A stretch of 64,000 nt of DNA from Thermalbibacter longus (GTDB lineage: Bacteria > Chloroflexota > Chloroflexia > Thermomicrobiales > Thermomicrobiaceae): contig NZ_JAMSLR010000014.1 of the NCBI RefSeq assembly GCF_023806485.1, positions 1 to 64,000 of the forward strand. Reading direction: 5' to 3'. This document shows, in pieces, positions 18,871 to 21,949 of this stretch. The translations under genes and the position numbers were made by a program. Every line of letters begins with the position of its first letter. Position 1 is the stretch's first letter. A model generated the notes under the pieces. It did no database searches and was not told the origin of the DNA. It saw nothing but the letters and a program-made list of their open reading frames with translations.

Positions 18871-20190
18871 CTACGAGACGTGCGAGGCCTGTTCCTCGGC
18901 CAATGGTAGCGCACGCCCGGTCTCGAAATCGTAGCGGGCGCGAAGCTCTCGGTCGTAGTACACGTTCACCACGCCATCGACGATTTCGACATCGACGCTC
19001 TTTAGGATCAGGTCGGACGGGAGCGGGCCGAACTCGCGGTCGCGCACGCTGATGGTGCCGTCGCCTCGAACCAGCCGCGGCTGTCGTCCCAGAGCCATCA
19101 TGTCCTGCGGCATCTCCGGCAAGCCGGCAGCGGCACGCAGGAACAGTCCCTCCTGGTCGCGGATCGACTCCGGGTCCTTGATATCGATGCGCCAGCCGGT
19201 CAACTTGTAGGCCAACCGCGCGTTCTGGCCATCCTTTCCGATGGCCTGCGACATCTGGTCGGTCGGGACGATAACGCGCGCCACCTTTTCGTCCTCGTTG
19301 AGGAAGACGCTGATCGGCTTGGCCGGGCTGAGGGCGTTGCTGATGAACGTCCGGGTGTCGGGTGACCACTCGATCACGTCGATCTTCTCGCCGGACAGCT
19401 CCGTCACGATGTTCTGGATCCGCACTCCCCGGACGCCGACACATGCGCCCACCGGATCGACCTTCTCCTGGCGCGCTGCCACGGCTACCTTCGATCGCTG
19501 GCCCGGTTCGCGCGCGATTGCCATCACCTCGACGGCACCGCTGAAGATCTCCGGCACCTCGAGCTCGAGGAGCCGCTTGATCAGGTTGGGGTGCGTACGG
19601 GAGACGACGAGCTGCGGGCCGCGAGGATCCTTGTTGACCTCGAGCAGGTAAACCTTGATACGCTGCCCCGGGCGGTAGCGCTCAGTCGGAATCTGCTCGC
19701 GCGCCGGCATGATAGCCTCGGCCTTGCCGAGATCGATGATCACCGCGCGCGGATCGGCTCGCTGGACGATCCCGGTCAAGATCTCGCCGACACGATCGGC
19801 GTACTCGTTGTAGATCGTCTCTCGCTCGTAGTCGCGGATTCGCTGCAGGATGACCTGCTTGGCCGTCTGCGCGGCGATCCGGCCGAAGTTTGCCGGCGTC
19901 CGCTCGAGGCGAACGACATCGCCCACCACGGCCTTGGGGTCGATCGTCCGAGCCTCCTGAACCGAGATCTCGCTGAGCGGGTCCTTGACCTCCTCGACAA
20001 CCCGCTTGGGGGCGAAGATGCGGATCTTTCCCGTGTTGACGTCGAGCTCGATCTCGACCTCTTCCTCGGATCCGGTGATCTTCTTGTACACAGTGCGCAG
20101 GGCATGCTGCACGGAATCCATGACCGCGTCGCGCGGGATGCCTCGCTCGGCTGCTATCTGGGCGATGGCAGTGTACAGATCGCTCTTCAT
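18871..20190 (-). CDS. nusA: Transcription termination/antitermination factor NusA
   Basis: 439 residues: N-terminal RNAP-binding domain, S1 domain (near DRVGEILTGIVQ), KH1 and KH2 (GACVGVRG, GKDGQNARLA). No C-terminal acidic repeats, as in most non-proteobacterial NusA. I start it at 20190, where AAGGAGGG lies upstream. It is the first gene of the array; rimP, its usual upstream neighbour, is missing. Its leader holds a promoter and an intrinsic-terminator-like hairpin, so autoregulation by premature termination is plausible. Confidence 0.96.
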   Translation of the reverse strand: MKSDLYTAIAQIAAERGIPRDAVMDSVQHALRTVYKKITGSEEEVEIELDVNTGKIRIFAPKRVVEEVKDPLSEISVQEARTIDPKAVVGDVVRLERTPANFGRIAAQTAKQVILQRIRDYERETIYNEYADRVGEILTGIVQRADPRAVIIDLGKAEAIMPAREQIPTERYRPGQRIKVYLLEVNKDPRGPQLVVSRTHPNLIKRLLELEVPEIFSGAVEVMAIAREPGQRSKVAVAARQEKVDPVGACVGVRGVRIQNIVTELSGEKIDVIEWSPDTRTFISNALSPAKPISVFLNEDEKVARVIVPTDQMSQAIGKDGQNARLAYKLTGWRIDIKDPESIRDQEGLFLRAAAGLPEMPQDMMALGRQPRLVRGDGTISVRDREFGPLPSDLILKSVDVEIVDGVVNVYYDRELRARYDFETGRALPLAEEQASHVS

Positions 20191-20255: not shown

Positions 20256-20284
20256 GCAAAAATTAAAGTGGGCATGGCCCACTT
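20256..20284 (-). terminator. Terminator-like hairpin in the nusA leader (candidate attenuator)
   Basis: Minus strand: AAGTGGGC (20277-20284), 3-nt loop, GCCCACTT (20266-20273), then TAATTTTTGC. It lies between the predicted nusA start of transcription (about 20306) and the nusA ATG (20190), in the sense direction. The opposite strand has no T-tract. Confidence 0.7.
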
Positions 20285-20307
20285 GGACGGGGCACTTCGT
20301 TGACCAC
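20263..20307 (-). CDS. Candidate leaderless leader peptide of nusA (14 codons)
   Basis: GTG begins 5 nt after the -10 hexamer, so an mRNA starting there would be leaderless. The frame encodes MVNEVPRPSGPCPL and its TAA stop abuts the terminator hairpin. Four of 14 codons are proline (one CCC, three CCA) and one is GGG. The region upstream is also open in this frame, so chance cannot be excluded. Confidence 0.3.
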   Translation of the reverse strand: MVNEVPRPSGPCPL

Positions 20308-20312
20308 TGCAC

Positions 20313-20321
20313 AGTATAACA
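20313..20321 (-). promoter_or_regulatory. Extended -10 promoter of the nusA operon
   Basis: TGTTATACT on the minus strand (TATACT at 20313-20318); no clear -35. This is the only promoter-like sequence I find before nusA. Confidence 0.55.
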
Positions 20322-20456: not shown

Positions 20457-20465
20457 TGTTATACT
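20457..20465 (+). promoter_or_regulatory. Extended -10 promoter of yvcK-gapA
   Basis: TGTTATACT (TATACT at 20460-20465) about 78 bp before the yvcK start, with no clear -35. It is the mirror of the nusA promoter in the same divergent region. Confidence 0.5.
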
Positions 20466-20542: not shown

Positions 20543-21949
20543 ATGAAACTCAGCACGTGGCTCCGGCCGGGGATGCTCATCAAGCGGTGGGTTTTGCTGC
20601 TGATGCTCGGGCTGGTGATGACCAGCCTCGGCCTGGCGATGGGGCTCGCCTGGGTTTACCGGAACTACGACTTTCCTCACCGAGTCTCGGGACTGGTACA
20701 GGCGGTCACCCTCCAGTTCATCCCGCACCCGTACCGCGAGATGTTGATGCTGATGGTTGGCGGGTGCCTGGTCGTGATCGGATTCATCCAGCTCAGCCGT
20801 TCCCTCCTATCTCCGTTCCTGGAACAGCGGGCCGATGGCCAGGGACTGGCGGAGATCATCCATGCCCACCGGTTCGGTCCGGCCCAGCCCGAGTTCCGGG
20901 TGGTAGCGATCGGCGGGGGAACGGGACTCTCCACGCTGCTGCGCGGGCTAAAGGCGCACAACGTGGCGATCACGGCTATCGTTACGACTGGTGACGATGG
21001 TGGGAGTTCCGGTCGGCTTCGCACTGAGTTCAACATCCCACCGCCGGGCGATATCCGGAACTGCCTGGTCGCCCTGGCGGACTCAGAGCCGCTCATGAGC
21101 GACCTCTTCCAGTTTCGCTTCCCTGAGGTCGGGTCACCGCTAGACGGCCACAGCTTCGGGAACCTGTTCATCACGGCGATGACCCAAGTCACGGGTAGCT
21201 TCGAGCGTGCCGTCGCCGAGTCGTCCCGTGTGCTCGCCGTGCGCGGGCAGGTGATGCCATCGACGCTCGAGAACATCACCGTCTGTGCCGAGATGGCCGA
21301 TGGCCAGGTCGTTCGCGGCGAGTCGCGCATCACACAATATCGGGGTCGTATCCGTCGCATCTTCCTCGATCCTGAGCGGCCCGAGGCCTACGACCCGGCG
21401 ATCATCGCGATATTGTCTGCTGATCTCATCGTGCTCGGGCCTGGCAGCCTCTTCACCTCCGTGATTCCGAACGTGCTCGTTAATGGCATCGCTCACGCGA
21501 TCCGTTTCTCTCCCGCTGTCAAGGTCTATGTGTGCAACGTGACGACGCAGCGTGGCGAGACGGATAGCTTCCGAGCGGTCGATCACGTGCAGGCACTCCA
21601 TGACCATGTCGGAGGGCCACTAGTGGACTACGTGCTGGTCAATAACAATTTCGAACCCAGCCGGCGGATCGACCCTGCGCTCGGCATCGCGCCGGTTAGC
21701 CTAGATGGGATCGACCGGCTCCAGGACGTGGGAGTCATCTTGCGCGACGTGGTGTGTGACGAGCAGCCGATGCGACACGATCCAGCCAAGCTGAGCGCGG
21801 CGCTGCTGGAGATCGTTCGCGAGGCGAAGAGCACGGCACGAACGGCCGATTTTGGGGAAGTCCGCGAACCGGCTGCGATCACTGGGGCAGTGGGAGGGAT
21901 GGCGACTCCGGCGATGGCGGACGCGCGCCGCCGGGTTTCGAGGCAGTGA
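20543..21949 (+). CDS. YvcK/CofD-like gluconeogenesis factor with N-terminal membrane anchor
   Basis: 468 residues. Two hydrophobic segments (about residues 15-35 and 65-85) precede the YvcK domain, which shows IGGGTGLSTLLRGLK, TTGDDGGSSG and PGDIRNCL. YvcK proteins bind UDP-GlcNAc and coordinate central carbon flow and cell-wall precursor supply; CofD relatives transfer a phospholactate group. The cluster with gapA, pgk and tpiA supports the metabolic role. SD AGGGGGATAG precedes the ATG. Confidence 0.88.
   Translation: MKLSTWLRPGMLIKRWVLLLMLGLVMTSLGLAMGLAWVYRNYDFPHRVSGLVQAVTLQFIPHPYREMLMLMVGGCLVVIGFIQLSRSLLSPFLEQRADGQGLAEIIHAHRFGPAQPEFRVVAIGGGTGLSTLLRGLKAHNVAITAIVTTGDDGGSSGRLRTEFNIPPPGDIRNCLVALADSEPLMSDLFQFRFPEVGSPLDGHSFGNLFITAMTQVTGSFERAVAESSRVLAVRGQVMPSTLENITVCAEMADGQVVRGESRITQYRGRIRRIFLDPERPEAYDPAIIAILSADLIVLGPGSLFTSVIPNVLVNGIAHAIRFSPAVKVYVCNVTTQRGETDSFRAVDHVQALHDHVGGPLVDYVLVNNNFEPSRRIDPALGIAPVSLDGIDRLQDVGVILRDVVCDEQPMRHDPAKLSAALLEIVREAKSTARTADFGEVREPAAITGAVGGMATPAMADARRRVSRQ

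Follow-up and report, generated by a model that had tools for sequence, protein, structure and literature searches.

Our comparative analysis identifies a short element at the head of the nusA-infB operon of Thermalbibacter longus, in which an extended -10 promoter and a terminator-like hairpin form one cassette conserved across Chloroflexota. The hairpin stem covaries, the element is present as a single copy in its genome, and it lies before nusA, with no rimP found in the genome. It is very probably a real attenuator, of an already known type: at a probability of about 0.8, we consider the element a promoter-proximal attenuator of the operon and the Chloroflexota counterpart of the rimP-leader, most likely acting by NusA-stimulated termination. 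A sequence-only reading had proposed a nusA attenuator controlled by a proline-rich leader peptide at this place. The attenuator survives the comparison with relatives, but the peptide does not, as its start, frame and Pro codons are unconserved, sometimes even within the genus.

In the window, the whole stretch of 64,000 nucleotides that was analysed, all of the pieces reported at 20256-20321 on the minus strand are present on direct reading, and they occur in the order originally described: an extended -10, a GTG 5 nt later, a 14-codon frame, a hairpin with a T-rich tail, and nusA. The extended -10 of the operon, TGTTATACT (20321-20313, minus strand), was likewise read directly, and a consensus scan found no match to a -35 element upstream of it. 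Between the probable transcription start and the hairpin lies a short leader, GTGGTCAACGAAGTGCCCCGTCC (20285-20307, minus strand), which was delimited in an alignment of leaders (A1) and contains a weakly conserved GG(A/T)nAAC-like motif. The hairpin itself, AAGTGGGC-CAT-GCCCACTT (20266-20284, minus strand), is of the rimP-leader type and was recognized by pattern scan, folding, covariation and a covariance model. Its 8 bp stem has a folding energy of -12.0 kcal/mol (z -3.8) and is followed by an interrupted T tract, TAATTTTTG (20257-20265, minus strand, direct reading). nusA, the first gene of the operon (18874-20190, minus strand), starts 75 nt beyond the hairpin with an ATG at 20190 that is preceded by the ribosome site AAAGGAGGGA, and encodes a protein 74% identical to the closest named NusA. 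It is followed in order by infB, rbfA, a DHH phosphoesterase gene, truB, ribF and tyrS. A second copy of the extended -10 TGTTATACT occurs at 20457-20465 on the plus strand, upstream of a divergent CofD/YvcK-like gene at 20543.

By pattern scan alone, a single terminator-like site of this kind is not unusual, with 4 observed against 4.0 expected. Despite this count, the promoter and hairpin cannot be attributed to chance because they are conserved. The search for NusA covered all 21 family genomes and 61 genomes of the order, and upstream sequence was collected for 51 genomes. The hairpin was found in all 51 of these Thermomicrobiales nusA leaders, although in one of them (L121) it was placed by eye, its tail scoring below the T count of the script. 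A TGnTATAnT-like -10 box precedes the GGG of the stem by 30-35 nt in 48 of the 51. The stem arms read AAGTGGGC/GCCCACTT in the family of the window, and AACGTGGG with CCCACGTT or CCCGCGTT in most other leaders. Among 39 aligned sequences, 97.4% of the stem cells form pairs, and this value drops to 23-61% in slid controls. Changes on both sides of the stem were observed in four of the eight pairs, including a compensatory exchange at column pair 47/67 (C-G in 23 sequences, A-U in 15), while the three inner G-C pairs are nearly invariant. The loops vary in length, mostly from 3 to 8 nt.

The same arrangement extends well beyond the order. When the 51 order leaders are combined with 39 from the wider Chloroflexota, the TG of the -10 box is present in 79 of 90 leaders, and the distance from the end of the -10 box to the GGG is 28-37 nt in 86 of 90. 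The typical wider form consists of TGnTATACT, about 30 nt, and the stem AAAAGTGGG..CCCACTTTTCTTGTTGT. The interruption of the T tract is also kept, as AA in the family of the window and as C or G elsewhere. A covariance model built on the cassette (R1) has a single match in the T. longus genome, directly before nusA (E 8e-10); in one congener (G010), two matches correspond to one element split by a contig break. With strict filters, R1 has matches with E of 0.1 or better in 107 of the 251 Chloroflexota genomes searched, and nusA lies directly downstream in 39 of the 40 matches that were fetched from the phylum.

The closest known system is the rimP-leader, a short terminator in which a stem of conserved GGGc(...)gCCC sequence is followed by a T stretch and no antiterminator is present (PMC2965389, Naville & Gautheret 2010). 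Both elements occupy the 5′ UTR of the same operon, which in the window and its relatives continues after nusA with infB, rbfA and truB, and both combine a short hairpin bearing a GGGc..gCCC core with a T stretch. The rimP-leader is found 4-130 nt before the first gene, compared with 75 nt here, and neither element has a visible antiterminator; for the present cassette, a conserved one was sought with RNAalifold, which gives one helix only, the terminator. The elements differ in that the operon usually starts with rimP, a matter of setting and not of sequence, whereas here nusA comes first and rimP was not found. They also differ in the -10 box at a nearly fixed short distance and in the conserved interruptions of the T tract. 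RF01770, which represents the gammaproteobacterial form of the rimP-leader and which the E. coli rimP leader matches at 102 bits, has no match in the window, even at permissive thresholds, and none above the cut-off in the 21 family genomes. With these observations, the range of the rimP-leader attenuator comes to include the phylum Chloroflexota, which the main text of the 2010 description does not name. Given its place before nusA in the absence of a detected rimP, we describe the form seen here as a nusA-leader version.

The identity of the regulator can be addressed through the distribution of rimP, which encodes a 30S maturation factor. NusA, which is known to repress the operon, was proposed as the best candidate regulator of the rimP-leader, and the same first description also considered RimP for this role (PMC2965389). 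That discussion gives some credit to a reading in which the hairpin responds not to NusA but to RimP, another protein of the operon or a small molecule. However, the RimP_N domain (PF02576) was detected in 0 of 61 order genomes, T. longus included, by a search that detects it in ten bacterial control genomes, and the hairpin is retained in all 51 leaders examined. That the hairpin persists without rimP speaks against a regulatory role of RimP, and the roughly 30-nt leader before the hairpin is too short for a sensor domain of riboswitch size. We therefore regard action by RimP or such other factors as very unlikely. Lineages that keep the hairpin without a detected rimP provide a natural experiment that points to NusA over RimP as its reader, and the evidence favours NusA as the regulator.

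Loci that do carry rimP are informative in a different way. RimP_N was found in 29 of 251 Chloroflexota genomes, and one of the rimP-bearing families has a GGGCC..GGCCC hairpin and T tract before rimP, not before nusA; no such hairpin was found close to rimP in the other rimP-bearing Chloroflexota families. In clostridial loci, a GTGGG..CCCAC hairpin is present upstream in 17 of 24, and it precedes a RimP-like ORF in the five loci checked that have room for one. Because the hairpin stands before nusA, rimP or a RimP-like ORF in different lineages, its position tends to follow the beginning of the operon and not a particular gene. The clostridial hairpin sits about 500-800 nt before nusA, and its loop is near-invariant (GGGAACAAATCCC; L023, L029, L032, L035, L039 and others), in contrast to the variable loops of Chloroflexota; this near-invariant loop may be bound by something. 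One clostridial locus (L022) also has a T-box-like leader at 1211-1390 on the plus strand, scoring just below the gathering score, upstream of the nusA region.

Based on these comparisons, RNA polymerase would start just downstream of the extended -10 and make a leader of about 50 nt. The GTGGGC/GCCCAC hairpin would then form, and the polymerase would pause or terminate in the interrupted T tract before nusA. NusA would most likely boost this termination, and plentiful NusA would lower transcription of its own operon. We infer both termination in vivo and the role of NusA as the sensor from the conserved layout and its likeness to known systems. According to a review (PMC12288461), NusA of B. 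subtilis regulates its own gene by stimulating termination in the nusA leader. In both that leader and the present one, an intrinsic terminator close to the promoter is placed to control entry into the nusA operon, although NusA dependence was measured there and we infer it here. Interruptions in the distal U tract are common in terminators dependent on NusA or NusG (PMC8060035), and the interrupted T tract of the cassette resembles those of the NusA-dependent ones. Given this interruption, factor-free termination may be weak and the site may be mainly a pause. Taken further, the site could be a NusA-stimulated pause and not a terminator at all, with the polymerase held near the promoter at a conserved T/G step before it moves on into nusA, a delay that would serve timing or factor loading. 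The terminal G of the tract, about 10 nt past the GTGGG..CCCAC core and kept in 45 of 51 order leaders and 26 of 37 wider leaders, resembles a Y/G pause step, and the interrupted tract would fit such a role. Yet the tail is still T-rich, and the layout is that of known terminators in leaders of this operon (PMC2965389). We consider a pure pause unlikely, and NusA-stimulated termination remains the preferred reading.

The leader also contains a candidate site for direct contact with a protein. In 22 of 51 order leaders, the stretch between the -10 and the hairpin carries a GAAYYRA-like motif, compared with a shuffle mean of 1.5 and none in the upstream control; in the wider phylum, 6 of 39 leaders have it. 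The RNA GAACUCAAUAG binds mycobacterial NusA. The GAAYYRA-like motif recalls this RNA and is possibly a protein-binding site. No 16S gene, and hence no rRNA leader to compare for a similar motif, was found in the assembly. A more specific proposal would combine two elements: that the rigid nusA cassette (extended -10, leader of roughly 31-34 nt, GTGGG hairpin and interrupted T tract) is kept without rimP, and that the GAAYYRA-like motif is a site for the KH domains of NusA, so that NusA would be captured by the nascent leader ahead of terminator formation. We hold this combined proposal to be rather unlikely and offer it tentatively.

The leader peptide deserves separate consideration, as the frame on which it was based does exist. 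Starting at the GTG at 20307, 5 nt after the extended -10, the 14-codon frame MVNEVPRPSGPCPL (20307-20263, minus strand) translates as (M)VNEVPRPSGPCPL* and ends just past the hairpin. It contains the codons that had been reported, with CCC, CCA, CCA and CCA for its four prolines and GGG for its glycine. A ribosome on this leaderless frame could, in principle, stall at CCA or GGG when charged tRNA-Pro or tRNA-Gly is scarce, mask the hairpin and thereby allow nusA to be transcribed. The nearest relative and three genomes of a different genus have a similar frame beginning with ATG, which could be taken in its favour. Across the order, however, a start codon at the same place occurs in only 5 of 51 leaders, in disagreement with the conservation in relatives that the peptide would call for. 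If starts anywhere in the GGG-reading frame are counted, 14 of 51 leaders have one, a chance level given 13.3 in shuffles. Even within the genus, the start position is CTG in two of four genomes. The 11 leaders of the two most similar genera vary about equally at all three codon positions (3, 4 and 3 variable columns for positions 1, 2 and 3), and no leader but that of the window has CCA as codon 8, which is CAA, GAA, ACA, AGA or AAA elsewhere.

The composition of the frame has a simpler explanation in the hairpin. The hairpin itself supplies the GGG and all but one of the three CCA codons, and the frame beyond the hairpin shifts because the loop length varies. When the leader of the window is shuffled with the hairpin fixed, 21% of shuffles yield such a frame and 4% yield one with at least three CCA codons. 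In addition, the usual promoter spacing puts the start of transcription where the GTG lies, at base 6 after the -10. The GTG therefore may not be fully transcribed. Attenuators of the trp and his type share with this locus a short frame that overlaps a terminator hairpin, but they rely on a conserved short ORF with conserved control codons and on mutually exclusive antiterminator and terminator helices. Here, the start, frame and Pro codons vary, only the terminator helix is conserved with no competing alternative, and the product of nusA is unrelated to the supply of proline or glycine. Control by such a peptide is thus extremely unlikely, and the frame, which we judge not to be a real gene, is by its codon pattern a by-product of reading the hairpin arms as codons. 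More generally, translating a palindrome can give the false appearance of a proline-rich leader peptide. A longer frame of 41 codons (20312-20187, minus strand) begins with a GTG beside the -10 and stays open to a TGA overlapping the nusA start; it is probably due to chance, and its start is too near the -10 for the frame to be transcribed whole.

The sequence-only reading had also connected the Pro and Gly codons of the frame to two tRNA genes of the same array, tRNA-Pro(TGG) (11860-11785) and tRNA-Gly(CCC) (11783-11708). These genes lie 8.3 kb downstream of the leader on the same, minus strand, beyond tyrS, and a pattern scan places a strong terminator-like hairpin after the pair. In two relatives of another genus (G013 and G017; loci L177 and L181), the Pro/Gly pair, close to where the nusA operon ends, lies on the opposite strand to nusA. 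In three congeners (G010, G011 and G012), the tRNA-Gly at the equivalent locus has the anticodon TCC, compared with CCC in the window. Together with the codon comparison above, the strand and anticodon comparisons led us to reject the link between these tRNAs and the leader. A tRNA-Gly gene with the anticodon TCC was not found in the assembly of the window, and over 75 bases the tRNA-Gly of the window does not differ from a second CCC copy, which lies on another contig (C12). As judged from these sequences, the CCC anticodon at this locus is peculiar to this assembly and probably arose either through misassembly of near-identical genes or through gene conversion.
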